Below, in pieces: positions 24,045 through 51,855 of a stretch of DNA of 64,000 nt; the first letter of the stretch is position 1, and each line of letters begins with the position of its first letter. This DNA comes from Phenylobacterium zucineum HLK1 (GTDB taxonomy: Bacteria > Pseudomonadota > Alphaproteobacteria > Caulobacterales > Caulobacteraceae), in assembly GCF_000017265.1 (NCBI RefSeq), contig NC_011144.1:2644001-2708000 (forward strand). Reading direction: 5' to 3'. Position numbers and translations under genes: made by a program. The notes under the pieces were generated by a model. That model worked only from the letters and a program-made list of their open reading frames with translations. It was not told where the DNA came from and searched no databases.

Positions 24045-24045
24045 C

Positions 24046-34923: not shown

Positions 34924-36899
34924 TCAGACGCCGACTTCGGCTGCGGCCCGAGGCCTCTTCCCCATCATCAGCACGATGACGAGCGACACCAGAATGCACG
35001 CCACAAGGAAGATGAACGTCGTGCCGAAATCCCCGTCCGCGACCTGCAGGAGCGCGCCGATGCAAAGCGGCGAGATCAGGCCGCCGATCTGACCGCCGGT
35101 GTTTATGAAACCGGTTGCCAGGCCCATGTCGCGTTTCGGAATGGTGCTCATGGGAAGGGCCCAGAAGGACGACAGGAATACGCTCAGGAAGAAGCCCGCC
35201 GCAGTCTGGCAGAGGATCAGGGCCCATGTGCTCGTGGCGACGAACGTCAGATACAGGAACAGCGCCGAGCAAACCTGAGTGCCGATGACGAGGATGCGGC
35301 GATTGTCCTTGAAGAACCTGTCCGACAGCCAGCCACCTCCGACACGACCCACCGCGCCAACGATGAATGGGAGTGAGGCTGCGGCCCCCATTTCGACCAT
35401 CGAGAAGCCGCGCGCCTGCACGAGATAGGTCGGCAGCCAGCTGGTGAACCCCCAATAGGCGATGTCGAAGATGAAGAAGGCGAAGAAATACTTCCAGATC
35501 TCGGGCGTCAGGATGTCCTTCAGCGTGCGCCGCTGAGCTCCCTCGACCTCCCCTGGCGCATCATCGCCCTCAATCTCATTCAGCTCCTGCTCCGTGACGG
35601 AGCGAACCTCTGAAGGCCGATCCTTGACCACCAGCCAGAACAGGATCGAAACCAGAATTCCGGGGATCAGGAGAACGAAGAACACCGCTCGCCAGCCCCA
35701 CGTCGCCATGATCCCGACGACGATCAGCGGGCTCAGGGCGGCGCCCAGGGTGTTCGCAGTCAACATGACCGCGCTGGCCGTCGCGCGCTCCTTCTTCGGA
35801 AACCAGGCCGCGATCGTCTTGAATGAAGCCGCCGGGAACGCGCCCTCGCCGACACCGAACAGCAGGCGCACGACCAGCAGCTGCATGAGCGTGGTGGCTG
35901 CGCCAGTAACGGCGGTGAAAGCAGATGGGGTGGATGGCTCCCGCTCACGGCATCTGAGTGCCAGACTTGTGGAAGTTGTCGAACAACCACGAGCGAAGGG
36001 AGCCACCCAGATGGAGATTACAACGATCGGCCTGGATCTCGCCAAGAGCGTTTTTCAGGTTCACGCGGTTGACGCCGAGGGGAAGGTCATCGTCCGCAAA
36101 GCTCTTCGACGAGCCCAGGTTCTGCCGTTCTTCAAGACCGCGCCGCCCTGCCTGGTGGGGATCGAGGCCTGCGGCACGTCGCACCATTGGGCGCGCGAGC
36201 TGAGGCGGCTCGGCCACGAGGTGCGGCTGATGCCGCCGGCTTACGTGAAACCCTACGTGAAGCGCGGCAAGACCGACGCCAACGACGCCGAGGCGATCTG
36301 CGAGGCGGTGACGCGGCCGACGATGCGGTTCGTGGCGATCAAGTCCGAGCAGCAGCAGGCGGCCCTGGCGCTGCACCGGACCCGAGATCTGCTGGTCAAG
36401 CAGCGCACCCAGCTGGTCAACATGATCCGCGGCCTCCTGGCTGAGTTTGGGATCGAGATGGCGCGCGGCCTGCATCATGCCCTCGACCTAGCCGCACGGG
36501 TTGCTCAAGGCGCTGCGCCGGACGTGCCCGAGCTGGCGGCGCGAGTCATCACCGGCCTGGCGGGCCAGATCGGCGATCTGCAGGTCCGTCTCACGGCGCT
36601 GGAGAAGGAGCTGCTGACCTGGCATCGGACAAACGAGCTGTCTCAGCGCCTCAGCACCATCCCTGGCGTCGGCCTGATCTCGGCCACGGCGCTTGCCGCC
36701 TCAGTCACCGACGCCAGCCGCTTCCGCTCCGGGCGGCAGTTTGCGGCCTCGCTTGGCCTAACACCGCTGCAGAACTCCAGCGGCGGCAAGGAGCGGATGG
36801 GGAGGATCTCACGGATGGGCGATCGATATCTGAGACGTGACCTGCCCCCTTCCTGATCCCTCGGTTTGAGTGAGAGTCCGTCACCCTGAGGAGACGGAC

Positions 36900-37163
36900 G
36901 TGAAGAAGAGCAGGTTCAACGAGGCGCAGATCATCGGCGTGCTGCGGGAGCAGGAGGCCGGGAGCCCGACGGCGGAGGTTTGCCGGCGGCATGGGATCAG
37001 CGAGCAGACCTTCTACCGGTGGAAGGCGAAGTACAGCGGCATGAACGTGTCGGATGCCCAGAAGCTGAAGACGCTGGAGGACGAGAATCGGCGACTGAAG
37101 AAGCTCTTGGCGGAGTCCATGCTCGACGTGTCGGCGCTGAAGGACCTGCTGGGAAAAAACTGA
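36900..37163 (+). CDS. IS3 OrfA (HTH transposase subunit)
   Basis: 87 residues with the HTH_Tnp_1 fold ([47 protein letters not shown]) and a leucine-zipper tail ([30 protein letters not shown]). GTG start after GAGGAGA. Ends at a run of six A residues (37154-37159) where ribosomes can slip into orfB. Confidence 0.93.
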
Positions 37164-38065
37164 TCGGGCCTGCAGCGCGCCGGGAGGCCGTGCTTCGCCT
37201 GATGGCGGAGCGCGGCTTCTCGCAGAGGCGCGCCTGCGGGCTGGTCCAGGTCGATCCGAAGACAGTGCGCCGCGTGGCCCAGCCAGGCGATGCGGAGGTA
37301 CGCGCCCGGCTGCGGGGCCTGGCGGCGGAGCGACGCCGCTTCGGCTACCGGCGGCTCGGCATCCTGCTCGAGCGTGAAGGCGTCAGCATGAACAAGAAGA
37401 AGCTCTTCCGGCTGTACCGCGAGGAGGGCTTGGCGGTGCGAAGGCGGCGCGGCCGCAAGCGCGCCACCGGCACGCGGGCGCCCATGGCGCTGCCGGACGG
37501 GCCGAACCAGCGCTGGAGCCTGGACTTCGTGGCCGACACGCTGAGCTGGGGCCGGCGCTTCCGGATCCTGTGCATCGTCGACGACTTCACCCGCGAGGCG
37601 CTGGCGCTGGTGGTCGACACCTCGATCGGCGGCCATCGCATGGCCCGCGAGCTGGACGCCCTGATCGCCCGGCGCGGCCGGCCGGCGACCATCGTTAGCG
37701 ACAACGGGACCGAGATGACCAGCCGGGCCATGCTGGAATGGACCAACCGCACCGGCGTCGACTGGCATTACATCGCGCCCGGCAAGCCGCAGCAGAACGG
37801 CTTCGTCGAGAGCTTCAACGGCAAGCTGCGCGACGAGTGCCTGAACGAGGAGGTCTTCGCCAACCTCGCCGAGGCCCGGGCTGTCATCGAGCGCTGGCGG
37901 CTCGACTACAACCACGTCAGGCCGCACTCGGCGCACGGCGGACTGACCCCGGAAGCCGTGCGTCTGAACCCCGCGGCCGGCCGGCTGCGCAACTTGATCA
38001 GCTCCACCGCCCGGCCGCTACCGCCGGCGCTGGAGATCAGCTACCAACCCCCTGGGCTCTCATAA
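37154..38065 (+). CDS. IS3 OrfB (DDE integrase domain), made by -1 frameshift
   Basis: About 303 residues downstream of the AAAAAA slip site, in the -1 frame relative to orfA. HTH_21 region ([33 protein letters not shown]) precedes the rve core with Asp in [10 protein letters not shown], Asp in [10 protein letters not shown] and Glu in [15 protein letters not shown]. It ends with [19 protein letters not shown]. All DDE residues are present, so the fused OrfAB transposase is probably active. Confidence 0.93.
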
Positions 38066-38300
38066 TGATCGAGGGACCGGCGGGGGGCAGGTCAGACGCC
38101 TGCTGGTCGTCGGCATGACCTCGCTCGTGCGCCGTGCACGAACAAGACCGGACTCGGTCGACCCGCGCATCGCTGCGATGCTGGCGCGCAAACCCGCTCG
38201 CGTGGTGACGGTGGCCGCGGCCAATCGCACCGCCCGTGTCGCCTGGTCGATCATGGCCCGCGGCGGCGTCTACCGCGCGCCTCAGGGCGTGACCGCCTGA

Positions 38301-38548
38301 CAGATTAGCTGATCGTCGACGACCAGCTTCCGGAGGTTGCGAGCGCGATGTGAAGTGATGGCGAACCGGTCAGACCGGGAGCTGGGACACCCCGCGTAGT
38401 GTCCAAGGCGTCGAAGCCTGCAAAGCAGAGTGGGACCCAGCTTGCGGACACCATCAGGGCCAGCAGTCCTTGAAACGACTGCATCAACAGGCCGGACACA
38501 AGACTGCACCCGACCCAGCCGCCAAAACATCAAATCGAGCCTTGCAAC
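38301..38548 (+). ncRNA. Candidate bridge RNA / seekRNA of the IS1111-type element
   Basis: About 250 bp between the transposase stop and the right sub-terminal repeat are non-coding and belong to the IS. In IS1111-group elements this 3' region encodes a structured guide RNA that pairs with target and donor DNA. The assignment rests on position and family; I did not fold it or locate the guide loops. Confidence 0.45.
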
Positions 38549-38830
38549 GCGGGAGCCATCCACACAGGACCACCACAGCATCGCGATGGTGGCGACCTTC
38601 CGGGCTCCGATGCGGTCAGCAAGGATACCGCCCGGCATCTGCGCGAGCGCGTAACCTACGAAGAACGCGCTCAGGATGAAGCTCGTCTGGAACGGCTGAA
38701 GCCCGAACTCCTTGGCGATGTAGGGCAAGGCGACGGGCATCGCCATACGATCAAGGAAGGCGACGGCCCACGTCACGAAGAGCACCGCGAGAATGGTGTA
38801 GCGATGCTTCCACGTCGGCAACTTGGTCAT

Positions 38831-39289
38831 TTTTTGAGTAACTCGGCCTCATCCCTGTCGAGAGCTCAGACCGCCTGGCGGCACTCTGCACCACTCATCT
38901 CGAACTTTTGCGAACTGTCGCATGCCCGTCAAAGTCATTGAGGGGCATTGCCTATTCTCAACGGTTATGGGGCAGACCGAGTCCGCGGCAGGAGGGCTGC
39001 TCCTGGGAGCGCCACTACGGCTGTGCTTTGGAGCTCAGCGCAGGCCACGGGCTGCACGCGTTAATGGTGCGGGGCGTCTGCGCCGCGTTAGCGCGTGAGC
39101 TTTTACGAATGGATGTCGCGGGAATTGGAATTGGACCCCCCGAGCCCAAGACGCTCAAGATGGATGACGAAGACCAGCTGCGGCCCGGAAGGTTCCTGAA
39201 CTTGCAAGCACTTGCGCTCGATCAGGTCGCCCCCGACTGGGGACGCCGCAGCCGGATTCAACCGGTCGTCCCCGTCTGAAGGTGCTACC
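38831..39289. other. Intergenic region of about 460 bp
   Basis: It contains the shared operator copy A (38928-38970) and should hold the divergent promoters for the broken MFS gene and for the hydrolase gene. Open frames cross 38908-39342 on both strands but show no recognisable protein features. Confidence 0.5.
38928..38970 (-). promoter_or_regulatory. Two-part operator, copy A (MFS promoter)
   Basis: GTCAAAGTC (38928-38936), 14 bp, then CCTATTCTCAACGGTTATGG (38951-38970). Relative to the MFS gene the dyad is distal and the GTCAAAG part proximal, 97 bp from the start codon. This layout fits LysR recognition and activation sites. Confidence 0.7.
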
Positions 39290-40390
39290 ATGCTGTATAC
39301 AGCCGAGCGAAAGCGTGGCCGGCGCGTGATCAGCCGGCTCATGGTCCTCGCCGGTCTGGCGTGCCTGGGAGCTCCGAGCCCCAGCCTGGCGCAGGACGCC
39401 GCGCGTCTTGCGCAGGCCAGGACTCCGCTAAAGCTTGATGGCGTCGGGAGCTTCTACGTTGGCGGTCGGCCGGTCGCCCAGAGCCCCACGGAGATAGGTC
39501 TCTATGCCGGCGGCTCCGTCATCATCGACCAGATGTACGTACAATACATGCTGCCCGCCGGACCCAAAAAGACGCCGATCGTTCTCGTCCACGGTGGCGT
39601 TCTGAGCGGCAAGACGTACGAGACCACACCGGATGGTAGAATGGGGTGGTACGAGTACTTCACCCGCAAGCAGCATCCGACCTATGTCGTTGATCAGGTC
39701 GGGAGGGGCCGATCTGGCTTCGACCAGGCGCCCTATAATCGGGTCCGGGCGCGCGAGGCTCCGCCAGCCTCTCAAGGCAACATCAGGCGAGTGGCGACGG
39801 ATATCGCCCTGGTGCGTTTCCGCGTCGGATCAGCTGACGGACGTCCGTTCCCTGAAACGCAGTTCCCAGTGGAGGCTGCAGGCGAGCTGGCGAAGCAGAC
39901 CATCCCTGACCTGAGCGATGGCTCGCCATCTGAGGAGCTCAACGTCCGAGCCCTTGCCTTGCTGTCACAGCAGCTTGAAGGCGCAGTGCTTGTCTCTCAC
40001 TCCCAGTCTGGTCGCTTCCCTCTTGAGGCGGCGCTGCGCACACCTCGTACTATCCGGGCGGTCGTGAGCGTCGAGCCGCCGGGGTGCAATGCGACCGTCT
40101 ATTCTGATGCGCAGATCGCGCAGCTTTCGAGGGTGCCAATTCTGATCGTTTTCGGAGATTACCTGGATGCTCCGCAAACGATGGGGATCAAGTGGAATGA
40201 GGCCTATCGCGATTGCATGGCGTTCGTAGCCCGCGTCAGGGCGGCGAACGGAAATGCGACGCTCCTGCACACGCCGGAGCTTGGGATGCGCGGCAACAGC
40301 CACATGCTCATGCAGGACAGGAACAACCTGCAGATCGCCGATCTGATCCTCGAATGGCTCGACGGCCATCTCCCGCCAGCCGGAAGATGA
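39290..40390 (+). CDS. Secreted alpha/beta-hydrolase
   Basis: 366 residues. After a signal peptide (SRLMVLAGLACLGAPSPSLAQ) comes an alpha/beta-hydrolase fold: oxyanion region VLVHGGVLSGKTYETTPDGRMGW, DQVGRGRSGF, nucleophile elbow SHSQSGRFP and C-terminal His in GNSHMLMQD. Likely a periplasmic esterase or lactonase-type enzyme; substrate unknown. ATG 39290 has AAGGTG upstream. It is divergent from the MFS gene and convergent with the hydantoinase genes, so it may pre-process the same substrate. Confidence 0.82.
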   Translation: MLYTAERKRGRRVISRLMVLAGLACLGAPSPSLAQDAARLAQARTPLKLDGVGSFYVGGRPVAQSPTEIGLYAGGSVIIDQMYVQYMLPAGPKKTPIVLVHGGVLSGKTYETTPDGRMGWYEYFTRKQHPTYVVDQVGRGRSGFDQAPYNRVRAREAPPASQGNIRRVATDIALVRFRVGSADGRPFPETQFPVEAAGELAKQTIPDLSDGSPSEELNVRALALLSQQLEGAVLVSHSQSGRFPLEAALRTPRTIRAVVSVEPPGCNATVYSDAQIAQLSRVPILIVFGDYLDAPQTMGIKWNEAYRDCMAFVARVRAANGNATLLHTPELGMRGNSHMLMQDRNNLQIADLILEWLDGHLPPAGR

Positions 40391-40438
40391 CCCGGCTCTG
40401 GGCGGGACACGGCTGGTCCGATGGCGCCCAGAGCCGGG
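40391..40438. terminator. Bidirectional hairpin between convergent genes
   Basis: CCCGGCTCTGGGCG (40391-40404) pairs perfectly with 40425-40438 around a 20-nt loop, immediately after the hydrolase stop and before the hyuB stop. No clear U-tract follows, so it may act as a bidirectional or Rho-assisted terminator. Confidence 0.65.
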
Positions 40439-40455
40439 CCGGGCCCCCTCCAGTC

Positions 40456-42192
40456 CTAGAGCAGGTTGAGGGCCTCGCGAACTCGAGCCGCGCCATAGTC
40501 TCGTTCAGCCGCAGACTGGGTGATGATCCCGTCCCTCAGATCCCGGGCGATCTCCCCGAGCGGCCGCTCGTCACACGGGCCGAAGCCGCCGCCGCCCGGC
40601 GTTTGCACGCGAATGCTTTCCCCAGCGGCGAGCACCAGGTTCGGCACCTTGGTGGGCAGAACCTGCTCATCGGCGCGGCCCGCATTGCGAATAACGGAAC
40701 TCAGGCCCCCGGTGCGACCGCCATAAATTCCTTCGGCGCCATGGATGTAGGCGTCGGATCTGGCGGAGAAGACCGTGTTGTCCTGCAGCGCTCGGACATG
40801 CCTTACGATACCAAGACCGCCGCGCTGTCGGCCCGCGCCGCCTGAGTCCACGGCAAGCGAGTAGCCCTCGCAGAGCAACGGGTACTCGTTCTCCATCGCC
40901 TCGGTCGGCAAGTTCAGGCTGTTCGTGATATGCACGTGGATGGCGTCCGCGCCGTCGTCGTTTTCGCGAGCGCCGCTGCCCCCGCCGACGGTCTCAGCGC
41001 ATACATAGAAGCGGCCGGTTTCGGGATTCACCCCAGAGAAAAAGAAGGACGGAAGCAGATCGTGACTCGATGCGATCTGCCGATCGGTCGGCACGAGCCC
41101 CCGGAAAGCGCCGAATACAGCGCCAGCGATCTTCTGACAGGTGTTGCTTCGGACGCCGGTCGCCGCCGGATAGTTGGGGTTTGCGATCGAGCCCTTAGGC
41201 GCTGAGATCGTCACCGCTTCGAACATGCCGCTGTTGGGCATCAGCTCCGGGTCCAGCAGGGCTTTGACGCAATAGTACACCGTCGCCCTGAGCGCGCTCG
41301 CCGGAACGTTGAAGGCGCCTCCGGCCTGGGGCCCAGTGCCCTCAAGATCGAGATGGAGCGCATTGCCGCCAGTCTTGGCAGTGACAACGATAGGAACCGG
41401 GCCGCTGCCGGCGCCGTCGTCGTCGAGCCAGGTCCGGAAGGTGTGCTCGCCTGCCGGGAGCGCAGAGATCCGCCGCCGCAGCCGCTCGGCTGTGTAGGCG
41501 AACACGTCCTCCACGGCGGCCTGCGCATTGGCCAGCCCCATGCGCTTGAAGAGGGCTCGCGTCTCGTCGCCGCCGCGTACGTTGACGGCGACCTGAACCC
41601 TGAGATCGAGGCGCCGCTCTTCTGGCATGCGCGAGTTCGCCGCGATCAGGTTGAGCAGGTCCTCATCAATTTCGCCACCTCGCGCGATCCGGATGATCGG
41701 AAGGCGAAGGCCTTCTTCGAAGATCGAGCGAGCGTCGGGTGAGATCGAGCCCGGAACCGCACCACCGAGGTCGGAATGGTGCCCAATGTTGGCGGCGAAG
41801 GCCGCCACCTGGCCATCGATAAACACGGGGGTGACGATGGAGACGTCCGGCATGTGCGTCCCCCCGGCGAGATAAGGATCGTTGCAGATGAAGGCGTCAC
41901 CCTCCACCATGTCGGTGATCCGATAGCGAGCCAGCAGAGCTTCGACCGATCCCAGCAGTGACCCAAGGTGGATCGGAATGTGGGTGCCCTGGGCGATCAG
42001 GCGGCCTTGGGCGTCGAAGATGCCGACTGAGAAGTCGCGGCGCTCCTTGATCTGCGCCGAATAGGACGACCGCATCATGTGGATCGCCATGTTCTCGGTG
42101 ATCGAGAGCATGCGATTGCTGAAGACTTCCATCGCGATCGCATCGAACTGGCGTTGCGGCGCGGCGTCCTGGGTTTGCGTTCTCTCTGCCAT
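40456..42192 (-). CDS. hyuB: Hydantoinase B / 5-oxoprolinase beta-type subunit
   Basis: 578 residues of the HyuB family: IAMEVFSNRMLSITENMAIHMMRSSYSAQIKERRDFSVGIFDAQGRLIAQGTHIPIHLG, then ICNDPYLAGGTHMPDVSIVTPVF. A C-terminal glycine-rich closing motif reads VQTPGGGGFGPCDERPLGEIARDL. With HyuA it forms an ATP-dependent amidohydrolase opening five-membered lactam or imide rings (5-oxoproline, N-methylhydantoin) or carboxylating related substrates. Lies 10 bp downstream of hyuA. Confidence 0.93.
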   Translation of the reverse strand: MAERTQTQDAAPQRQFDAIAMEVFSNRMLSITENMAIHMMRSSYSAQIKERRDFSVGIFDAQGRLIAQGTHIPIHLGSLLGSVEALLARYRITDMVEGDAFICNDPYLAGGTHMPDVSIVTPVFIDGQVAAFAANIGHHSDLGGAVPGSISPDARSIFEEGLRLPIIRIARGGEIDEDLLNLIAANSRMPEERRLDLRVQVAVNVRGGDETRALFKRMGLANAQAAVEDVFAYTAERLRRRISALPAGEHTFRTWLDDDGAGSGPVPIVVTAKTGGNALHLDLEGTGPQAGGAFNVPASALRATVYYCVKALLDPELMPNSGMFEAVTISAPKGSIANPNYPAATGVRSNTCQKIAGAVFGAFRGLVPTDRQIASSHDLLPSFFFSGVNPETGRFYVCAETVGGGSGARENDDGADAIHVHITNSLNLPTEAMENEYPLLCEGYSLAVDSGGAGRQRGGLGIVRHVRALQDNTVFSARSDAYIHGAEGIYGGRTGGLSSVIRNAGRADEQVLPTKVPNLVLAAGESIRVQTPGGGGFGPCDERPLGEIARDLRDGIITQSAAERDYGAARVREALNLL

Positions 42193-42202
42193 AGCCTGAT
42201 GC

Positions 42203-44254
42203 TCAGCTCGTGATGATGATGTTGCCGTAGGCGTCGATCGTGGCGGTCTGACCGCGGAGCACCACGGTCGTGGAGCTCATTTCCTCGATGACGCAGGGTC
42301 CCACGACGTTCGTACCGACCGGCAGGGCGGACCGACGGAAAATCGGCGTCTGAAGCCAGCCTTCCTCGGGCCCGTAGTAGACGGAACGCACGTCCGTCTC
42401 TGCCGCCGCGAGGCTCGAGCCGCCCTTGTGACTGGGCTCAAGCTGCTTGGGAACAACGCCGACCGCGCGCAGACGGCAGCTCACCAGAAACACCGGCTGG
42501 CCGGCGTTCTGGTATCCGAAGGCGGCCTCGTGCGCGTTGCCGAACCGGGCGAGGAAATCGTCGAGGCCCGACGGGTCTGCCGCCTCAAGCGGCACGCGCA
42601 GTTCGTGGCTCTGGCCAGCGTAGTGAGCGTCGATCGCGAGCTCCGCGCGGCGCAGCTCGGGCTCGACATTCTCGCCGGCCAGCCACCGGTCGCCCTCATC
42701 CGCCATCTCGCGCAAGGCCGCGCAGGCGCGCTCCCAGGAGGACTGCGTCGCGGCCGTCAGCTGCATCCGCACAAAGTCGAGGCTCACGTCCGACAACAAC
42801 ACGCCCCGAGCGCACATCGTACCGGGTTCCTGCGGCACGAGAATGCGGCGGATCCCCGACTCGCGAGCCACCTCGGAGGCATGCAGAGGACCGGCGCCGC
42901 CGAACGCGAAGAGAGCGATGTCCCCGACATCGTGTCCCTGCTCCGTCGTGACCGCTCGAATGGCGCGGCTCATGTTGGCGGCGGCGACCTGGATGACGCC
43001 GTAGGCGGCCTTCTCAACCGAGATGCCGAGCGGCCGCGCGATCTTCTCCTCGATGCTCGTCCAGGCGGCCTCTCGATCCACCGGCATGCGGCCGTCAAGA
43101 AGCGCGACGGGGTTGAGCCTGTTCAGGCAGATGTTGGCGTCAGTCAGCGTTGGCAGGTCGCCGCCGCGCCCGTAGGCCACGGGACCGGGATGCGCGCCGG
43201 CGCTGCGCGGACCAACCTTGAGAGCCTGGGCGTCGTCGACCTGCGCGATGCTTCCGCCCCCGGCCCCGATCACATGAATGTCGATCATCGGCAGACGGAC
43301 GGGGTAGCCGGCGACCTCGCGACTGGAGGCGAGTTTGGGCTTGCCGTCGACGACCAGCGAGACATCGGTGCTCGTGCCTCCCACGTCGAACGTGACCAGA
43401 TCCCGCACTCCAGCGGCAGCCCCCACGACGGCAGCGCCGATCACGCCGGCTGCCGGGCCGGAGAGGCAGGTCGTGACCGGCAGGCGCTTTGCGCTGTCGA
43501 TGGAGAGCAGCCCGCCGTTCGAGTGAATGATCATCGGAGCCACGGAGATGCCCCGCTCGGCGATCTTGGCCTTCAGCCTGTCGAAATAGGCCGCCATCCT
43601 CGGGCCGACATAGGCGTTGAGGACGGTCGTCGACGTCCGCTCGAACTCGCGGAATTCAGGGAGCACGCTCGACGAGGTGCTTACATACACGCCTGGAAGC
43701 TTGCGGGCGGCGATCCGGGCCGCGGCCACCTCATGTTCGGCGTTCTTGTACGCGTGGAGGAACGATATCGCGATCGCCTCGACACCCGTGGCCGCAAGCT
43801 GGTCGAGCACCCGCTCGAGTTCCGCCTCGTCGAGTGGGGAGAGCTCCTCGCCCTTTGCATTCAGTCGCTCAGCGACTTCCAGCCGGCGGTAGCGCTCCAC
43901 CAGAGGCGGCGGGCGTTTAACGGTGACGTCGTAGAGGGCGGGTCGCGTCTGGCGCCCGATCGCCAGGACATCCCGGAAGCCCTGGGTGGTGATGAGGCCG
44001 GTCGGCACCCCACGCCGCTCGATGATCATGTTGGTCGCGACGGTCGTGCCGTGGCCGATGTAGGAAATCTCGGCCGCCCCGATCTGGAACAGCTCCAGGA
44101 TCTGGGAGATGCCGTTGACGATGGCGTCGGACGGGTCGTCCGGCGTGGACGAAAGCTTGAAGTAGAGAAAGTCGCCGCTGCTCACGTTCTCGATCGTGAA
44201 GTCGGTGAACGTTCCACCTACATCGACGCCAATACGATACATACCCTTAGCCAT
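42203..44254 (-). CDS. hyuA: Hydantoinase A / N-methylhydantoinase-type ATPase subunit
   Basis: 683 residues with the ASKHA ATPase signature at the N-terminus (YRIGVDVGGTFTDFTIEN) and the second phosphate motif LVTFDVGGTSTDVSLVVDG. HyuA_N, Hydantoinase_A and a C-terminal domain ending in GPCVIEEMSSTTVVLRGQTATIDAYGNIII are in order. Exact substrate (hydantoin, oxoproline or acetone-type carboxylation) cannot be separated by sequence. It follows the TonB-receptor gene by 158 bp on the same strand, so both may share the promoter with operator copy B. Confidence 0.93.
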   Translation of the reverse strand: MAKGMYRIGVDVGGTFTDFTIENVSSGDFLYFKLSSTPDDPSDAIVNGISQILELFQIGAAEISYIGHGTTVATNMIIERRGVPTGLITTQGFRDVLAIGRQTRPALYDVTVKRPPPLVERYRRLEVAERLNAKGEELSPLDEAELERVLDQLAATGVEAIAISFLHAYKNAEHEVAAARIAARKLPGVYVSTSSSVLPEFREFERTSTTVLNAYVGPRMAAYFDRLKAKIAERGISVAPMIIHSNGGLLSIDSAKRLPVTTCLSGPAAGVIGAAVVGAAAGVRDLVTFDVGGTSTDVSLVVDGKPKLASSREVAGYPVRLPMIDIHVIGAGGGSIAQVDDAQALKVGPRSAGAHPGPVAYGRGGDLPTLTDANICLNRLNPVALLDGRMPVDREAAWTSIEEKIARPLGISVEKAAYGVIQVAAANMSRAIRAVTTEQGHDVGDIALFAFGGAGPLHASEVARESGIRRILVPQEPGTMCARGVLLSDVSLDFVRMQLTAATQSSWERACAALREMADEGDRWLAGENVEPELRRAELAIDAHYAGQSHELRVPLEAADPSGLDDFLARFGNAHEAAFGYQNAGQPVFLVSCRLRAVGVVPKQLEPSHKGGSSLAAAETDVRSVYYGPEEGWLQTPIFRRSALPVGTNVVGPCVIEEMSSTTVVLRGQTATIDAYGNIIITS

Positions 44255-44412
44255 CTTTCTTCCCGGTGACGTCGCCAGCCTTCATCGGCTCAGCTCAGAA
44301 ACACCTGCCGCCTGGGAGCTACGCGCGCCGTAACGCGCGCGACATTGAGGTCCACAGCGGACGGATGCGCGGACTACTGCAATCATCCGCCCGCTGAGGC
44401 CATGAGAACGAA

Positions 44413-46914
44413 CTAGAACTTCACCTCGACACGGCCATAGTAGAAGCCGCCGGTAAACCCGAACGGACCGAAGCGCGGATATTGGTTGTAGCCGTACTGC
44501 GCGAGCGGAATGTTGTTCGCTGGCGGATACTCATTGAAAATGTTGTCCGCGCCGGCGGCCACGGTCACCTGATCGGTGAGGCTGTACCTGACCTGAGCGT
44601 TCGCGATCCACTGGGACGGGAAGAAGCGATCCAGCGCGGCGGTTGAGCCGGGCGCTGTGAACTCATCGTAGCGAACACCCTGGAGATTGAGCTCGAACTT
44701 GTCCCGGGTCCAATTGACCCCCAGGGCGACTTTGCTCTCCGGAACAGCTTCGGTCAGGTAACCGCGAGCCACGCGATCCACCTGGACGTATGCGGCGCCC
44801 AGCGCGCTGAGCGCCGCTGGATTGGGATCGATGTGAGTGATCTTCGTCTTGTTGATGTTGACGGCCGCCGTCAGCTTCAGATTGCCGAAGTTCTCAAGAT
44901 CCTTGCGATATGTGGCGATGATGTCGACGCCCGACGTCCGTGTGCTCACCGCATTGGTGAAATACTGTCCCGTCAGGTTTCGATCGATACCGTTCGCCGC
45001 AAGAATATTGGCGACTGCAGCGCCTTGCAGGATGCTCCCAAGGACAATCCGGTCGTCGAGTTTGACGGTGTACCCGTCGATGGTGACGTTGAAGTTGGGA
45101 GCTGGGCTGATCGTGAGGCCCACGCTCGCGTCAACCGACTTCTCCGGCTTCAACGGCGATGAACCAAGCGCGACCGCCGCCGGGTGTCCAACCGGCAGAA
45201 TCTGGTTGGTGATGACCGTGCCCAGGTTCGCTGCGGCGGTGCTCGGGGTCACGCTCGCCTTGGAATAGTGCTGCTGCGCCAGGCTCGGCGCACGGAAGCC
45301 GTTGCCGAAGGAGCCCCGCAGCGACAGCCATTCATTGAGCTTGTATCGACCATCGATCTTTCCCACGAGGCTCGTGCCCGACGAGTCGTCGTAGTTTTCG
45401 ATCCGCCCCGCCGTCCCCACGAACAGACGATCCGTCGGCTCATAACCAAGCTCGACATAGCCGGCGACGACGTTCCGGCTCCACGAGCCGGAGTCGGCGG
45501 GCCGCAGGCCCGGAGCGAAGAACGCTCCGCCCGGCAGCGGCACGCCCGCGAACGCCTGGCCGGCGGGCCTCACGTAGGTCCCCAGGACGTAGCTCGCCGG
45601 CTCGCCGGGGGAGATCTTGAAACGCTCCAGTCGGTGCTGAGCCCCGAACGACACCTGCAGCGCGCCGCCCCCGGCAAGATCGAAACGACGCGTGACGTCC
45701 AGCGAGTTTACCCACTCGCGCGCGGAGAGGGCGCCGATGTAGAAGTCGGTCTGGGTCGTCGGCCCGAGGCTCGCATTCAGGCTTTCCAGCATATCCTGCG
45801 GGGCGCGGTTCTCGCCGAGGCTGGACGAAAGGTTCCAGTTCCAGTCGTTGAGGTCCCCGCGGAGACCGATGGCGAGCGCGCCGTCCGTTTCCCGGATCCG
45901 CTGAACCGGATAGGCGAAGTTCGGGTAGATCTCCGGAAGTGCGACCGACTGGTTGGGAATGATCGGCGGGTAGATGATGTCCGTGATGCGGCGGCCGTAC
46001 GTACCAAAGGCGTACGCCTCGAGCTCTCCGATCTGTTGTTTTCCGTTGAACCCGATCTGCCACTGCTTGGCCGGGAAGATGCCAAAGCCGCGACTGATGA
46101 GGCGATTGACCGTGGCCTCCCGCGGATCGGGCTGGCCATTCGCCAGCCTCGGATAAAGCTGAACGGTGGAGGCGACGGGGAATGAGCGGTCGGATCGGTT
46201 CTGCCGGGTGACGGAAAAGAACAGGTTCAGGGAGCCGGCGTCTGATATGCCGAAGCCGTAATCACCCCGGATGAGCAGTTGCTCGCCGTCGCTACGGTCC
46301 ATGTTCTGGCCGTACTGAGCGCTGAGTGAGCCGCCCTCGGTGTCCTTGAGCAGGACGTTGATGACACCGGAGATCGCGTCCGAACCGTACTGCGCCGCCG
46401 CCCCTTCCCGAAGGACTTCAATTCTGCTGATGGCGGATGTCGGGATCATGCCCAGATCGACTGGGGCAGAACCGTTGTAGAGGCCCTGGCCGACGTTGAT
46501 CAGTGACGTGTGGTGACGGCGCAGACCATTCACCAGCACAAGGGTGTGATCAGGATTCAGGCCTCGCAGGCCGCCGGTCAGAATAGCGCTTGAAGTGCCC
46601 GAACCCGCCTTCGTGGTGTAGTTGAACGACGGGACCTGCAGTTGCATGTCCTGGTAGAGGTTGGCGTGACCGCCCTTCGCAATCTCCTCCCCCGAGAGGA
46701 CGTCGATCGGAGTCGGGCTATCCAGCTTGGAGCGAGGCTGCCCGCGGACACCCGTGACAACCACTTCAGTCAAGGTATCCGCCCCGCCTTGCCCGCTGGG
46801 GTCAGCCGCCTGGGCATGAGCCGATGAGGCGAACACCGCCCCCGCGAAAATCGCTGCGGCTGAGGTGTTCCGGAAGAGCCGAACCCGCCCGCCCCGATTG
46901 CATTCCTGCGCCAT
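44413..46914 (-). CDS. TonB-dependent outer-membrane receptor
   Basis: 833 residues. Signal peptide (FRNTSAAAIFAGAVFASSAHAQ), then TonB-box-like LTEVVVTGVRG and a plug domain (SPTPIDVLSGEEIAKGG...EVLREGAAAQYGSDAISGVINVLLKD). A 22-strand barrel ends in the C-terminal aromatic motif GGFYYGRVEVKF. ATG 46914 has AAGGGGG at good spacing; codons further upstream lack a signal sequence. It imports a substrate too large for porins, or scarce. Operator copy B lies 81 bp upstream. Confidence 0.93.
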   Translation of the reverse strand: MAQECNRGGRVRLFRNTSAAAIFAGAVFASSAHAQAADPSGQGGADTLTEVVVTGVRGQPRSKLDSPTPIDVLSGEEIAKGGHANLYQDMQLQVPSFNYTTKAGSGTSSAILTGGLRGLNPDHTLVLVNGLRRHHTSLINVGQGLYNGSAPVDLGMIPTSAISRIEVLREGAAAQYGSDAISGVINVLLKDTEGGSLSAQYGQNMDRSDGEQLLIRGDYGFGISDAGSLNLFFSVTRQNRSDRSFPVASTVQLYPRLANGQPDPREATVNRLISRGFGIFPAKQWQIGFNGKQQIGELEAYAFGTYGRRITDIIYPPIIPNQSVALPEIYPNFAYPVQRIRETDGALAIGLRGDLNDWNWNLSSSLGENRAPQDMLESLNASLGPTTQTDFYIGALSAREWVNSLDVTRRFDLAGGGALQVSFGAQHRLERFKISPGEPASYVLGTYVRPAGQAFAGVPLPGGAFFAPGLRPADSGSWSRNVVAGYVELGYEPTDRLFVGTAGRIENYDDSSGTSLVGKIDGRYKLNEWLSLRGSFGNGFRAPSLAQQHYSKASVTPSTAAANLGTVITNQILPVGHPAAVALGSSPLKPEKSVDASVGLTISPAPNFNVTIDGYTVKLDDRIVLGSILQGAAVANILAANGIDRNLTGQYFTNAVSTRTSGVDIIATYRKDLENFGNLKLTAAVNINKTKITHIDPNPAALSALGAAYVQVDRVARGYLTEAVPESKVALGVNWTRDKFELNLQGVRYDEFTAPGSTAALDRFFPSQWIANAQVRYSLTDQVTVAAGADNIFNEYPPANNIPLAQYGYNQYPRFGPFGFTGGFYYGRVEVKF

Positions 46915-46995
46915 ACCAACCCCCTTGAATTGCTGTCGTTTGGCCGCATTGGGCATGCGCCATGGACGTGCACTATGCTGAAGCCAATCGATGCA

Positions 46996-47038
46996 CTCAA
47001 AGACCGATAACGCTGTCACGTATTCTTCAAGGTTATGG
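46996..47038 (-). promoter_or_regulatory. Two-part operator, copy B (TonB receptor promoter)
   Basis: CTCAAAGAC (46996-47004), 14 bp, then CGTATTCTTCAAGGTTATGG (47019-47038). Same orientation relative to its target as copies A and C, with the same 14-bp gap. Confidence 0.7.
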
Positions 47039-47111
47039 GACCTGGGCTGTCACATTTCACCGGGACGCGCGCCATTCCCGGCTTGCCCCTCGTCATTTGG
47101 ACCAGCGTCAG

Positions 47112-47145
47112 GGCCTAAAAAGAACCCCGGCCGTTACGACCGGGG
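47112..47145 (-). terminator. Rho-independent terminator of the oxidase-ridA operon
   Basis: CCCCGG (47125-47130) pairs with CCGGGG (47140-47145), extended by two more inner pairs. On the minus strand it is followed by TTCTTTTTAGG. It lies 66 bp after the RidA stop and separates that operon from the TonB-receptor promoter. Confidence 0.78.
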
Positions 47146-47211
47146 CGAAGTTCTGCGTCCGGCGGGGAGGAGAATGCCGGACGGGTCGTGTGTCGGGCGC
47201 GCGACGGAGGC

Positions 47212-47571
47212 TTAAGTGGCCACCGCCGCCACCATCGTGATCTCGACCAGGACGTTCGGCGCTGCCATCTCGCACTGAGCTGTGGCCCTTGCCGGCGCAT
47301 GCTCGGGCGACATCCAGCCGTCCCAGACCTCGTTCATGCCAGCGAAGTCGCGCGCGATATCCTTGAGCCAGATCTGCGCCGATAGGATTCGGGTGCGGTC
47401 CGATCCCGCCTCCGCGAGCGCCTTGTCCGCCTTCGCCAGCGCTTGCGCCGTCTGGCTACGAATGTCGCCGCTACGATCATCAGCGGCCTGGCCGCCCAGG
47501 AAGGCGAGCCCATTGTGAATCACGACGCGGCCCCGCCGAGGATTCGTCGCGATCCGTTCGATGTCGCTCAT
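47212..47571 (-). CDS. ridA: RidA/YjgF family enamine/imine deaminase
   Basis: 119 residues of the RidA fold (VVIHNGLAFLGGQAADDRSGDIRSQTAQALAKADKALAEAGSDRTRILSAQIWLKDIARDFAGMNEVWDGWM...PARATAQCEMAAPNVLVEITMVAA). The Arg in PARATAQCEM matches the substrate-carboxylate-binding Arg of active RidA proteins. It would hydrolyse imine intermediates released by the flavoprotein oxidases of the same operon. Gap to the upstream oxidase gene is 35 bp. Confidence 0.92.
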   Translation of the reverse strand: MSDIERIATNPRRGRVVIHNGLAFLGGQAADDRSGDIRSQTAQALAKADKALAEAGSDRTRILSAQIWLKDIARDFAGMNEVWDGWMSPEHAPARATAQCEMAAPNVLVEITMVAAVAT

Positions 47572-47606
47572 GTACGTCTCCGGTCCTGCGCTCTCTGGCG
47601 GAATGG

Positions 47607-48788
47607 CTAATCGTCGGAGGCGGCGAGCGGCGCGCGCGCTTCGCCGTCCCGCGTCGAGCGCCTGTTAAGTTTTCCCGCTGTCATCAGCCGACCGGGTTGG
47701 AGTCCGTTCAGGTCGAACGCCGTCTGTCCCGTCAGCATCAGATCGGCCGCAGCCACGCCCAGAGCCGGCACCAGCTGAAAGCCGTGCCCACAAAACCCGA
47801 ACAGGTGCAGCAGACCCGGCGCCGTCGGCGACAATCCGGCGATCGCAATATCATCGCTGGTCCTGGCTTCGAGCCCCGCCCAGCTCCGGACGATCCTCAG
47901 ACCGGCGACGCTCGGGAAGAGAGCGACCGCCGCCGCGGCGGATCTGGCCAGGGTGCGGATGTCGACCTCGGCTGTCTCGTTCGCCAGATCGGCCCGCCCC
48001 TGCTGGCCGCCGCCGATCAGAAGCGTGCCCTGGTCGGTCTGCTTGAAGGAGAGCTTGCGGCCCGCGGTGCTCACAGTCGGGCGGACAAAAGGTGCGATGC
48101 GCTCGGTGACGATCATCATCGAGGCCTTGGTGTCGAGCGGGATGTGGTCACCGGCCATCGCGGCGATTTCTCCCGCCCAGGCCCCGGCTGCGTTTACGAC
48201 CAGCGGCGCTTCAAACCACGCCGGCCCGGCGCCAATGCGCCAGACGCCATCGCGTCGCTCCAGCTGTGTGACGCCCGTTCCCTCGCAGACGACGACGCCC
48301 GCCTCGGTTGCTGCACGAAGATAGGCGGCCAGCGTCCGGTGAGGATCGGCCGCGCCATCGTCCTTGGCGAAGGCGCCACCGATGCAGTGGCGGGCCAGGC
48401 CAGGCACGAGTTCGCGGAGCTGCGCGGCGTCCACCAGCTCCTCGTTGTAAAAGCCGTCTCTGCGGAGGTGGTCCACACGGGCCCTGATCCGCTCGAGCTC
48501 AGCCTCCGTCTCAGCTACCTGAAGCTGGCCGTGCGCATGGAAGCCGCAGTCATCCCCGACGATCTCGGCGATTCCGTGCCACATGGTCATCGCGGCCAGC
48601 GAAAGCGGCAGTTCGGCGCGCGCCCGGCCAAGCGTGCGAACGCCGGCGGCCGAGGCGCCGGATGAATGCCGGCCGACGCGGCGGCGTTCCAGCAGGGTCA
48701 CCCGGGCCCCGCGGCGGGCGATCTGCAGGGCGGCCGACAGGCCATGAAGGCCGCCGCCGATGACCAGCACGTCGGCCTTGGCGCTCAT
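47607..48788 (-). CDS. FAD-dependent amino-acid oxidase/dehydrogenase subunit (DadA/HcnC/OoxB-like)
   Basis: 393 residues. The N-terminal Rossmann motif VLVIGGGLHGLSAALQIARRGARVTLLERRRVGRHSSGASAAG binds FAD. The DAO fold continues to VRSWAGLEARTSDDIAIAGLSPTAPGLLHLFGFCGHGFQLVPALGVAAADLML. It has the gene order of the beta subunit in HcnABC, octopine/nopaline oxidase and D-hydroxyproline dehydrogenase complexes, beside a 2Fe-2S and an FAD/NAD subunit. It would oxidise the C-N bond of a secondary or D-amino acid-like compound; the substrate is not defined. Confidence 0.88.
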   Translation of the reverse strand: MSAKADVLVIGGGLHGLSAALQIARRGARVTLLERRRVGRHSSGASAAGVRTLGRARAELPLSLAAMTMWHGIAEIVGDDCGFHAHGQLQVAETEAELERIRARVDHLRRDGFYNEELVDAAQLRELVPGLARHCIGGAFAKDDGAADPHRTLAAYLRAATEAGVVVCEGTGVTQLERRDGVWRIGAGPAWFEAPLVVNAAGAWAGEIAAMAGDHIPLDTKASMMIVTERIAPFVRPTVSTAGRKLSFKQTDQGTLLIGGGQQGRADLANETAEVDIRTLARSAAAAVALFPSVAGLRIVRSWAGLEARTSDDIAIAGLSPTAPGLLHLFGFCGHGFQLVPALGVAAADLMLTGQTAFDLNGLQPGRLMTAGKLNRRSTRDGEARAPLAASDD

Positions 48789-50143
48789 GCGTCAGTCTCC
48801 AGGGAGGCGAGCTCCTTCAGGGTCAGCGGCTTCAATGGCGGGCGGATCTTCAGGAACCCGACGGCCCCAAATGGCAGCTGATGGGTCTCGGCCGTCAGGC
48901 GGGAGAGCGTCGGCGCGCATTGCCGCCCCTGGCACGGCCCCATACCCGCACGGGTCGTCGCCTTCACACCGTCGGGACCAAGGTGAGGACGATCTCGCAA
49001 GGCGGTCCGGACCTGCCCGGCCGTCACCTCTTCGCAGCGGCAGACCATCGTCGAGTCTGGGATGCCCAGCGTCATCCCCGGAAACGCGGCGTCGAGAAAC
49101 CGTCGGAAACGGGCATTGTTCGCCAGCGTCCGGCGAAGCGGCGCCGCTTCGGCCTCCGCCTCCCTCGGTGAGAGCTTGCCGGCCGCCCTTGCGACGCCGA
49201 TTGCGGCCAGACGGCCTGACACTGGCGCCATACGAGCTCCGCCGATCGTCGCCGCGTCGCCCGCGACAAAGATCGACGGTTTCGACGTCGCGCCGTAGCC
49301 ATCCGTCACAGGCTCGAATGCCCGCTGCGAAACGTTCCACTGATGCTCGCAGCCGGCGGCGAGGGTCGCGTGAACCCCCGGGATGACGCCGTCGTGGACG
49401 AGCAGATGCTCGGTCGGGATCTCACCCGTCCGTCCGCCGCGCGTCTTATAGCGCACTCCCGTCAGCCGTTCGGAACCGAGCGCTTCGAGCGCTACGACGC
49501 CGCGGATGATCCGCCGCCGCGAGCGCGGCAGCAGCCAGTTCAGGCCGCGGATCAGATCCGCGGCGCCATAGCGGAGGGCTCCGAGCAGATGCGGGGCGGC
49601 TGCCACAGCGCGTCCAGGCGGCGTCGTGTCGATGACGCCGGCCACCTCTCCGCCCGCGTCGACGAGCTGCTGGATGTACAGCAGCAGCAGCGGACCGCTG
49701 CCCGCAAGCCAGACCGGACGATCCGGGATCTGCCTGGCGGTCTTGAGCAGGATCTGCGCGGCCCCGACTGTCATCACCCCGGGCAACTGCCATCCAGGGA
49801 ACGGCATCGGCCGCTCCTGAGCGCCCGTGGCGAACACCACGAACGCCGGTTCCAGCATCCGCGCCTCACCCCCGCTGGACAGGAACACCCTCGGCCCGCC
49901 CTCGATCTGCCAGACTTCGGTCGAAGGCAGATAGTCTCCCCCACCATGGCGGAACCGCGTGACCAGCGCGGCGCCGCCCTGTTCTTCCGCTGTCTTCGCT
50001 TCGCGGGTTTCGATTGCAGCGAAGATGCGCCCGCCGGGCGCCGGCTGATCGTCGACGACGGTGACGGAAAAGCCCCTGGCCTGCAGGTCCAGGGCGGCGG
50101 ACATGCCGGCCGGACCGGCCCCGATGACAAGGACGTCCGTCAT
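48785..50143 (-). CDS. FAD/NAD(P)-binding oxidoreductase subunit (HcnB/OoxA-like)
   Basis: 452 residues. GAGPAGMSAALDLQARGFSVTVVDD binds FAD, a central ATGAQERPMPFPGWQLPGVMTVGAAQILLK and NADH-type LAGSGPLLLLYIQQL follow, then FVAGDAATIGGARMAP. The C-terminal region has a Cys-rich BFD-like cluster (MVCRCEEVTAGQVRTALR...GMGPCQGRQCAPT). This is the alpha-subunit architecture of opine oxidases, HcnB and D-hydroxyproline dehydrogenase. Overlaps its neighbours by 4 bp. Confidence 0.9.
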   Translation of the reverse strand: MTDVLVIGAGPAGMSAALDLQARGFSVTVVDDQPAPGGRIFAAIETREAKTAEEQGGAALVTRFRHGGGDYLPSTEVWQIEGGPRVFLSSGGEARMLEPAFVVFATGAQERPMPFPGWQLPGVMTVGAAQILLKTARQIPDRPVWLAGSGPLLLLYIQQLVDAGGEVAGVIDTTPPGRAVAAAPHLLGALRYGAADLIRGLNWLLPRSRRRIIRGVVALEALGSERLTGVRYKTRGGRTGEIPTEHLLVHDGVIPGVHATLAAGCEHQWNVSQRAFEPVTDGYGATSKPSIFVAGDAATIGGARMAPVSGRLAAIGVARAAGKLSPREAEAEAAPLRRTLANNARFRRFLDAAFPGMTLGIPDSTMVCRCEEVTAGQVRTALRDRPHLGPDGVKATTRAGMGPCQGRQCAPTLSRLTAETHQLPFGAVGFLKIRPPLKPLTLKELASLETDA

Positions 50144-50451
50144 TGCTCGACCGAACTCAGAGGATCGGGTCGGCCGGATTGTCGTCGGACGACCATGCCG
50201 TGGCGCGCGCGGATCATGCAGGTCCGGCTGCTCACCTCGCCGTCAACCTCGGCGAGACAGTCGAAACAGACACCCATCATGCAGAAGGGCGCACGCGCAG
50301 CGCCCCCGATGGGCGTCGTGCGAGAGATATGAGGCGGAGTCCGAAGAAGGATGGCGGAGAGCGGCTCACCCTCCTCCACCAGAAGGGCCTGGCCATCGAC
50401 CATGATGGTCACGGATCTGGCTGACCGCTTGGACTGGAGCTTACGGAACAT
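50140..50451 (-). CDS. (2Fe-2S)-binding subunit (HcnA/Fer2_4-like)
   Basis: 103-residue ferredoxin-like subunit. The cluster ligands are visible in APFCMMGVCFDCLAEVDGEVSSRTC (CxxxxCxxC...C). ATG 50451 gives the family-like start MFRKLQSKRSARSVTIMVDGQALLVEEGEPLSAILL; the frame is open further upstream but without matching sequence. First gene of the four-gene operon that ends with ridA. Confidence 0.9.
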   Translation of the reverse strand: MFRKLQSKRSARSVTIMVDGQALLVEEGEPLSAILLRTPPHISRTTPIGGAARAPFCMMGVCFDCLAEVDGEVSSRTCMIRARHGMVVRRQSGRPDPLSSVEQ

Positions 50452-50724
50452 CTGATACTTTCGGTCTGCGGATGCGCAGATGGATCGCGGGCTGCCGGCT
50501 CGGTGGCCGGCGCGGCGGCGCCATTCAACCAGCGCCTGACTCCACGGAACGCCGGGCGCCGGGCGCCCTGCGGGCTTCAGAGGCTGCTGCCGGCGACCAT
50601 GACGTTCCGAGGCAAGCGAAGCTGAAGCTGACGGGTCGCTTCGTGACCGTTCATCCTGACGTCCCCCTGTCGCCCAGATGGCGAGTTTTCTGGAGACGCC
50701 ATTCGGCGCAAACGGCACAATTCC

Positions 50725-50767
50725 GTCAAAGTCGAAAAGGCGAGAGGCCTATTCGCCAGGGTTATGG
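50725..50767 (-). promoter_or_regulatory. Two-part operator, copy C (oxidase operon)
   Basis: GTCAAAGTC (50725-50733), 14 bp, then CCTATTCGCCAGGGTTATGG (50748-50767). It is oriented toward the oxidase operon, whose first start lies 273 bp away, implying a long leader or a promoter well upstream. Confidence 0.68.
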
Positions 50768-50787
50768 GAACCGGTCGGCGAGGAAGT

Positions 50788-51711
50788 CTATGGCTCGATC
50801 ATCAGAGACGAAGAGATCTCCGTGGCTTTGCGCCGGAGCTCCTCAACGAAGGCGTCGACGATATGCGCATTCCGGCTATCTGCACTCCGGCAGAGCTGGA
50901 AGTTGTAGGGCAACTCAGGTGCGAAGCGTCGGACTGTCACCCGGCTTTCCAGACCGCTCACCATCAGCGGATGGACAAGGGACACGCCAAGACCAGCTCC
51001 GACGAATTCGCAGACGGTCAGGGCGTTGTTGGCGACGAGGGCGATCTGCGGCGTGACCCTGTAGGACTCGAACATCTCGCTCACCAGGTGGCTCACATAG
51101 ATGTCCGAGTCGAAGGCGATGAACGGCGCCCCCTCGAGGTCATCGGGTTCGATCAGGCGCTTCGTCGCCAGCGGGTGATCCTTGGGCATGACGCAGGCCA
51201 GGGGCTGAAGCATCAGCGGCTCGAGCGTGACGTAAGGATTGTCCACCCTTGCGCTGACCAGCCCGACATCGAGCTTCCGGGCGATCAGCCAGTCCACCAC
51301 CCACTGCGAGCTCAGGGACTGGACCGAGCAGAAGATGGCGGGCCTCGCCTTCAGGAAATCGGTCGCCGCCTGCTGGATGAACGAGCTCGCCAGGGCGGGG
51401 AGCACTCCGATCGCCAGGCGCCCCTGCTGCTCGCGCCGGATCGCCTCCACGACATTCTCGACCTGACGGATGCCGCCGAAGATGCGGCCCACTTCCTCAT
51501 AAAGGCGCATCCCGTGCTCTGTCGGCGCCAGCCGGCCCTTCACCCGGTCGAACAAACGGAGGCCAGTGTCGTATTCGAGATGAGCCACAAGCTTACTCAT
51601 GGCGGGTTGCGAGACATTGAGGACCTGCGCCGCGCGGCTGATGGTGCCGTTCTCTATGACCGCCTTGAAGGCCTCGATCTGGCGCAGGTTCAGATGACGC
51701 CGCATTGCCAT
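50788..51711 (-). CDS. LysR-family regulator (OccR/NocR-like), probable regulator of the nitrogen-compound regulon
   Basis: 307 residues. HTH: HLNLRQIEAFKAVIENGTISRAAQVLNVSQPAMSKLVAHLEYDTGLRLFDRVKGRLAPTEHG, close in style to the opine regulators OccR and NocR. A LysR substrate-binding domain follows (about residues 95-290). ATG 51711 lies inside operator copy D; a second ATG at 51705 is also possible. It stands next to the oxidase operon, and the four operator copies have a T-N11-A core, as LysR sites do. Confidence 0.88.
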   Translation of the reverse strand: MAMRRHLNLRQIEAFKAVIENGTISRAAQVLNVSQPAMSKLVAHLEYDTGLRLFDRVKGRLAPTEHGMRLYEEVGRIFGGIRQVENVVEAIRREQQGRLAIGVLPALASSFIQQAATDFLKARPAIFCSVQSLSSQWVVDWLIARKLDVGLVSARVDNPYVTLEPLMLQPLACVMPKDHPLATKRLIEPDDLEGAPFIAFDSDIYVSHLVSEMFESYRVTPQIALVANNALTVCEFVGAGLGVSLVHPLMVSGLESRVTVRRFAPELPYNFQLCRSADSRNAHIVDAFVEELRRKATEISSSLMIEP

Positions 51712-51749
51712 AACCTTTGCGAATAGGTCGGTGATGTCTCGCCTTTGAC
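51708..51749 (-). promoter_or_regulatory. Two-part operator, copy D (lysR start region)
   Basis: On the minus strand GTCAAAGGC (51749-51741), 13 bp, then CCTATTCGCAAAGGTTATGG (51727-51708). The dyad overlaps the lysR start codon, suggesting autoregulation. Confidence 0.68.
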
Positions 51750-51855
51750 GAATATACACCGACTGCGTAGCGTCAAGCCGTGCAGCCTCATCCGCCGGGA
51801 TGGTGTCCGTCAGCTCCTCTTTCCGCCCGCATGCGCACCCTTCAGGCGCCAGCGG

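Follow-up and report, generated by a model that had tools for sequence, protein, structure and literature searches.

The 64,000-nucleotide stretch of the Phenylobacterium zucineum HLK1 genome analysed here (the window) carries a gene for a LysR-type regulator, genes for an outer-membrane receptor, a hydantoinase/oxoprolinase pair and a flavin- and iron-sulfur-containing oxidase, and four copies of a two-part, 42-43-bp module. Comparison with the loci of related regulators suggests that the modules are operators of the neighbouring LysR protein and control genes of an opine-type pathway, a reading to which we give a probability of roughly two in three. That the module is a LysR operator common to a small regulon is strongly supported by computation: in alpha- and betaproteobacteria alike it accompanies this LysR subfamily and lies ahead of genes of the same types. 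We hold with moderate confidence that the compound is of the opine type, and it probably includes lactam forms. Most likely a single LysR protein turns on import and breakdown genes for opine-like compounds, and the same switch stands beside related genes elsewhere, including on a crown-gall plasmid. The module provides an operator that can be tested in a LysR branch to which regulators of succinamopine-type clusters on tumour-inducing (Ti) plasmids and of many soil bacteria belong. It could help to find more opine-type catabolic genes and to connect importers, oxidases and lactam-opening enzymes to a common regulator. A further suggestion from these results is that the use of opine-like compounds extends to bacteria not known to be linked with plant tumours.

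The two-part module in the window

With at most three mismatches, the 20-mer CCTATTCNNNANGGTTATGG has exactly four matches in the 64 kb, at 38951 (+), 47019 (+), 50748 (+) and 51708 (-), where 0.09 are expected, and four matches were reached in none of 100 shuffles. Each is accompanied by a second box, (G/C)TCAAAGNC, at 38928, 46996 and 50725 (+) and at 51741-51749 (-). The gaps between the two halves are 14, 14, 14 and 13 bp and 15 of the 20 positions of the 20-mer are invariant, so the four modules named in the original prediction are borne out. The (G/C)TCAAAGNC half alone is not specific, since it occurs eight times in the window against 2.5 expected and four of these occurrences are unrelated to the modules. 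The predicted operators are as follows.

38928..38970, minus strand: operator S1, 20-mer and TTGAC box, facing leftward to the split MFS transporter gene
46996..47038, minus strand: operator S2, directed at the TonB receptor gene and probably also serving hyuA and hyuB
50725..50767, minus strand: operator S3, facing the 2Fe-2S/FAD/FAD/RidA genes (FAD, flavin adenine dinucleotide)
51708..51749, plus strand: operator S4, which ends 3 bases short of the likely lysR start and has its TTGAC box facing rightward, away from lysR

When at most two mismatches are allowed, the 20-mer pattern finds in the genome (4.38 Mb) the four modules and one further match, with two mismatches, at C2:598124; the 3-kb locus around the latter contains no two-part match. 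A search of the whole genome for the full module with a 14-bp gap and at most three mismatches returns only the three 14-bp copies, and the reversed-pattern control gives one match. Transposase and type IV secretion genes are present in the region, as might be expected if the modules were a dispersed repeat or the remnant of a mobile element carried with the island; the genome-wide search, which had been proposed as a check, found no close full-module copy beyond the window's own sites, and the modules are therefore not a dispersed repeat. This explanation is largely refuted, also by the column-specific conservation and fixed spacing in other genera that are described below.

Read toward its targets, the module is CCATAACC-N5-GAATA(G/C)G, followed after 13-14 bp by GNCTTTGA(C/G). 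In this direction the 'GTCAAAG' half, (G/C)TCAAAGNC, therefore contains the TTGAC -35 box of the target promoter, and the hexamer is preceded by a conserved extension. The imperfect dyad TAACC-N5-GAATA contains a T-N11-A core, and its centre is calculated to lie at about -64, counted from the predicted -35 hexamer, from which the transcription start is itself deduced. Measured from the predicted -35, the T-N11-A dyad and the second box stand where a LysR recognition site (near -65) and activation site (near -35) would be expected. In geometry this is the layout that had been proposed, with the amendment that the -35 hexamer of each target promoter lies within the proximal box. The available part of a computational study of LysR sites (PMC5002191) places the strongest inverted repeat of OccR, in the octopine operator between occQ and occR, at -64 and another at -33, matching the spacing of the window's dyad and -35 box. 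The likeness noted is in spacing, and the window LysR is similar to OccR only weakly, in the effector domain (E 1.2e-11).

The fourth copy had been described as overlapping the lysR start. It adjoins that start without overlap: the likely start codon, judged from homologues that begin M-x-R-x-L-N-L-R-Q, is the ATG at 51705, and the S4 dyad lies 3-22 bases ahead of it, a register nearly matched in relatives (for example L010 and L040, one base closer). The TTGACG of S4 is followed after 17 bases by a -10-like TAGCGT (TTGACG-N17-TAGCGT), and at 51708-51855 this arrangement points right into a gap before a gene on the opposite strand. That neighbour, a bioA-like class-III aminotransferase gene (51856-53157), is on the minus strand, and we rejected the idea that S4 drives a divergent gene in the window; no homologue of a divergent partner to the right of S4 was found among the open reading frames (ORFs) of eight relative loci. 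S4 is possibly the remnant of a site for a divergent gene since lost.

The module in the loci of LysR relatives

The relative set comprised the best 80 genome loci with LysR relatives and five plasmid loci. The 40 closest (L007-L040, L081 and L087-L091; LysR 44-70% identical) formed the test set, which includes many similar Achromobacter and Bordetella loci and two loci, L014 and L081, that share one contig; the other 45 (29-40% identical) served for contrast. With no input but the window's four sites, a bipartite matrix found 48 sites at a score of at least 20 in 34 of the 40 close loci; six of the 45 distant loci had one site each, and three simulated sets had none. At a score of at least 16 it found 54 sites in 36 close loci, 19 sites in 17 distant loci, and 1, 1 and 0 in the simulated sets. 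Of the 54 sites, 49 have a 14-bp gap and 5 a 13-bp gap; the ATAAC columns are conserved in 53 and the GAAT columns in 50-54, and the CTTTGAC columns are conserved in 46-49 of the 49 sites with a 14-bp gap, except for one T position (39). Conversely, a matrix made from the other genomes only, from sites that had themselves been found with the window's matrix, ranks the four window sites first to fourth (44.3, 43.7, 42.1 and 36.6), the next score in the window being 9.8 and the best in 10 simulated windows 11.4. Two attempts at de novo motif discovery upstream of the relatives' lysR genes returned no operator and picked conserved coding sequence instead, first the lysR N-terminus and then the N-terminus of a divergent flavin enzyme.

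With target distance measured in the predicted direction to the start of homology, at most 400 bp from the site, 44 of the 54 sites precede a pathway-type gene and 10 have no assigned target. The targets are SBP5 solute-binding proteins (23), ThiO-like FAD enzymes (11), Fer2 proteins (4), MFS transporters (2) and TonB, hyuA, MmgE and DAO genes (1 each). Such placement is also not what a dispersed repeat would give. Homologues of both the Fer2 and the FADa subunit genes lie in the fetched 10-kb flanks of lysR in 33 of 35 genome loci, and LysR, oxidase and hyuAB occur together in two of the fetched Agrobacterium plasmid loci. These distributions, 34 of 40 against 6 of 45 loci and the same kinds of target genes, support by computation the LysR regulon that had been put forward.

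We also considered whether some other regulator might act at the modules, or whether they reflect a promoter pattern of housekeeping type, with lysR a mere neighbour. Half of the module does contain a -35 hexamer, binding by LysR is predicted, and six distant-LysR loci share the site at score 20; the dyad half is nevertheless conserved as well (the ATAAC columns above), the module tracks the LysR clade, and the exact-pattern matches in two other genomes adjoin a lysR of this family, so that we regard such an origin as very unlikely. Those matches come from an exact-pattern search of 385 genomes of the class, in which only the own genome and two others scored; the LysR beside the site is 58% and 71% identical to that of the window, and the neighbours, judged by eye from ORF translations, are a FAD-enzyme-like and a 2Fe-2S-like gene at one locus and an MFS-like gene at the other.

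The recognition helix reads (S/T)QPAxSK in 42 of 42 close LysR proteins, with or without a scored site, and R replaces K in 40 of the 45 distant ones, including all six whose loci carry a site. This residue therefore does not explain the sites, and we rejected it as an operator discriminator; it marks the clade only. Four of the six distant-LysR loci with a site (L042, L043, L045 and L063), which we take to be Halomonadaceae, have a variant module, CCATAACA-N5-GAATA-N16-GCATT(A/G)G, near 10913-10960. The Novosphingobium genome behind L081, where the lysR match spans only the first ~97 residues, has the pattern with at most three mismatches at 10 places, six of them within 200.9-238.8 kb of the contig shared by L014 and L081; arginine-succinyltransferase-type genes near one copy were not accepted as operator targets, another LysR gene adjoining them. 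Aldehyde dehydrogenase, pipecolate-oxidase-like, acyl-CoA dehydrogenase and 2-oxoacid-dehydrogenase-type genes lie near the regulon at 11389-20566 of L020, where the opine is perhaps of a lysine type. A search of the open-licence literature found no published operator for this LysR branch.

Opine-type genes and related plasmid clusters

The genes next to the modules, with their predicted regulator, are the following.

50788..51705, minus strand: lysR, LysR-type regulator (HTH_1 and LysR_substrate domains)
50140..50451, minus strand: 2Fe-2S protein (Fer2_4), of the opine dehydrogenase gamma-subunit type
48785..50143, minus strand: FAD protein with a BFD-like 2Fe-2S domain, alpha-subunit type, 47% identical to the pTi Sta004 homologue
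47607..48788, minus strand: FAD amino-acid-oxidase-like (DAO) protein, beta-subunit type
47212..47571, minus strand: RidA family protein, likely for imine hydrolysis
44413..46914, minus strand: TonB-dependent outer-membrane receptor
42203..44254, minus strand: hyuA, hydantoinase/oxoprolinase A, 73-74% identical to pAt2788b and Novosphingobium homologues
40456..42192, minus strand: hyuB, hydantoinase/oxoprolinase B, 71-73% identical to proteins of the pAt2788b and Novosphingobium loci
38507..38830, minus strand: MFS transporter, N-terminal fragment
34924..35925, minus strand: MFS transporter, C-terminal fragment, parted from the front by insertion sequences

The lysR product has the N-terminal HTH_1 and C-terminal substrate-binding domains of LysR-type regulators, and a domain scan finds the complete subunit set of the OdhABC dehydrogenases: alpha (FAD, 2Fe-2S BFD), beta (DAO-type) and gamma (2Fe-2S). 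OdhABC complexes of this make-up, known from Pseudomonas putida and Bradyrhizobium japonicum, oxidise nopaline or octopine according to the available part of PMC4575208, and the window enzyme appears from its domains to share their three-subunit composition. The Bradyrhizobium gene order, B1-C-A-B2, is that of the operator-bearing Bradyrhizobium locus L015; the words LysR and hydantoin do not occur in PMC4575208. Hydantoinase A and B domains cover most of both Hyu proteins, which belong to the family of N-methylhydantoinases, 5-oxoprolinases and caprolactamases and fall below the curated cut-offs of its named NCBIfam subfamilies.

Two Agrobacterium plasmids carry the most informative relatives. 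On pAt2788b a lysR gene faces 2Fe-2S, FAD, FAD, hyuA and hyuB genes in a row; its HyuAB proteins are 71-73% identical to those of the window, and the operator match there scores only 16.3. The cluster of pTi Sta004, which resembles the published succinamopine cluster, contains LysR, FAD, 2Fe-2S, FAD, FAD, ATP-binding cassette (ABC), hyuAB and asparaginase genes and an octopine/nopaline-type dehydrogenase gene. One operator match lies 49 bases ahead of the homology region of the first (ThiO-like) FAD gene, another 55 bases ahead of the gene for the substrate-binding protein. The window LysR is 44% identical to the pTi Sta004 homologue and 53% to that of pAt2788b, which here stand in for SacR and LecR, and the DAO protein is 54% identical to the SacH-position homologue of pTi Sta004 and 26% to the SacE-position one.

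In the part of PMC6733357 that is accessible, the pTiEU6 cluster is assigned to succinamopine and its LysR protein is named sacR, and it is the only paper in the open-licence literature found to name SacR and succinamopine together. Like the window, the sac and lec clusters (pTiEU6, pTiBo542 and pTiChry5, with SacR or LecR) have a LysR beside 2Fe-2S/FAD/FAD opine-oxidase genes and a hydantoinase/oxoprolinase pair nearby. They differ in having an ABC importer, and pTiEU6 also has two noxB-like FAD subunits and an asparaginase (PMC6733357, same portion). In place of an ABC importer with a solute-binding protein under the operator, a TonB receptor gene and a broken MFS gene stand in the window, which also has one beta-type subunit, RidA and no asparaginase among the genes scanned. 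This TonB/MFS import, encoded on the larger contig, is what is new relative to the known opine clusters. No operator is described in the same portion of PMC6733357, which suggests lactam opines as possible substrates for ring opening by the HyuAB hydantoinase pair; a similar remark is made for rideopine in the available part of PMC8554961. The content of the plasmid clusters, with what could be seen of PMC6733357 and PMC4575208, therefore suggests that the window fits an opine-type pathway. The compound, which had been called an unknown nitrogen compound, is thus not wholly unknown, because the genes match opine, probably opine-lactam, catabolism; it narrows to the opine type without being fully fixed.

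From the modules, their conservation and the gene families, we infer a scheme of binding, ligand response, direction of regulation and reaction chemistry. A LysR tetramer would hold the dyad of each module, and a ligand would shift its contact at the -35 box (GNCTTTGAC, overlapping TTGAC) so that RNA polymerase could start; S4, placed just ahead of the start codon of lysR, probably has a part in negative autoregulation as well. The TonB receptor, and formerly also the MFS carrier, would import the compound, HyuAB would open its lactam ring with ATP, the 2Fe-2S/FAD/FAD complex would oxidise the secondary amine, and RidA would help the imine to hydrolyse to a keto acid and an amino acid.

The operator assignment could be right and the substrate a different one, such as an N-methylhydantoin- or creatinine-like ring, a caprolactam-like lactam, or D-hydroxyproline. 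The best PDB sequence match of HyuA is indeed N-methylhydantoinase, followed by 5-oxoprolinase, the best NCBIfam matches of HyuAB are caprolactamase subunits, and the oxidase subunits are homologous to D-hydroxyproline dehydrogenase (PMC4575208, part available). HyuAB score however only 547 and 257 bits, below the CapAB caprolactamase equivalog cut-off of 1000. Among the window genes scanned (part of the window ORFs) neither an epimerase nor a deaminase for hydroxyproline is found, and a Ti plasmid carries the LysR-plus-oxidase core next to asparaginase and octopine/nopaline-type dehydrogenase genes. We consider a non-opine substrate unlikely.

Several observations weigh against modules that control an opine pathway. 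Six of the 40 close relatives lack a site at score 20, and sites in 6 of 45 distant loci at that score, and in 17 of 45 at score 16, mean that the motif is not exclusive to the clade. S4 has no recognised gene on its outward side, S1 and S3 have, by eye, no clear -10 element at 17-18 bp, and the 2Fe-2S gene starts ~270 bp from S3, a distance that is ~55 bp in L020 and L081. The operator match at the FAD gene of pTi Sta004 falls inside the annotated, probably over-long, frame, whose start lies further upstream; the match therefore precedes the homology region and not the annotated start. Homologues of hyuA and/or hyuB were found within the fetched flanks in only 7 of the 40 relative loci, two of these being weak hyuB matches, and hydantoinase genes are absent from some rideopine plasmids (PMC10410297, as far as its text was available); lactam or ring opening is therefore, from the seven loci, an optional and not a constant part. 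No gene fixes which amino acid the opine carries.

State of the locus and neighbouring genes

The MFS gene is split by a nested insertion (34924-38830) with IS110-type and integrase-core transposase genes.

35594..36856, plus strand: ORF with IS110-family transposase domains (~36023-36838), inside the split MFS gene
36980..38065, plus strand: ORF with integrase-core (rve) transposase domains, inside the same insertion

With the gene in two pieces, S1 no longer fronts an intact carrier gene. Of the targets first named (MFS, TonB, and 2Fe-2S/FAD/FAD/RidA), all are indeed faced by modules, the MFS target being the front part of the split gene. The lysR and 2Fe-2S genes have the same direction in the window and are on opposite strands in 31 of 33 relative loci that have both; the locus appears to have been rearranged in the window.

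VirB4-, VirB10- and VirD4-type conjugation genes at 17041-26875 of the window suggest an integrated conjugative element, and no tRNA gene was found in the window. A similar LysR was not found in 198 other genomes of the family and 397 others of the order (E 1e-60 and 1e-90, with the top candidates of each genome scored), which together with the conjugation genes fits lateral acquisition; the DNA carrying the modules, which is on the larger of the assembly's two contigs, is probably mobile.

Behind the back part of the MFS gene, on the same strand, lie branched-chain aminotransferase, thiolase and acyl-CoA dehydrogenase genes (30808-34622), ahead of which a matrix scan of the window found no operator, and an indolepyruvate-ferredoxin-oxidoreductase-type gene lies further right (55682-59176). 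It is possible that these genes make up an amino-acid-specific module. As a tentative proposal, which we hold conceivable and not likely, the system may be a portable opine(-lactam) regulon with one LysR operator, common to soil proteobacteria and crown-gall plasmids. Its fixed core would be the regulator and the oxidase, sometimes with HyuAB; importers (ABC or TonB/MFS) and amino-acid-specific genes (asparaginase, arginine-succinyltransferase-type, pipecolate-oxidase-like or branched-chain) would be exchanged. The window's opine would then be one of a branched-chain amino acid, for example leucinopine or its lactam, to which the neighbouring branched-chain aminotransferase, acyl-CoA dehydrogenase, thiolase and indolepyruvate-oxidoreductase-type enzymes would point.

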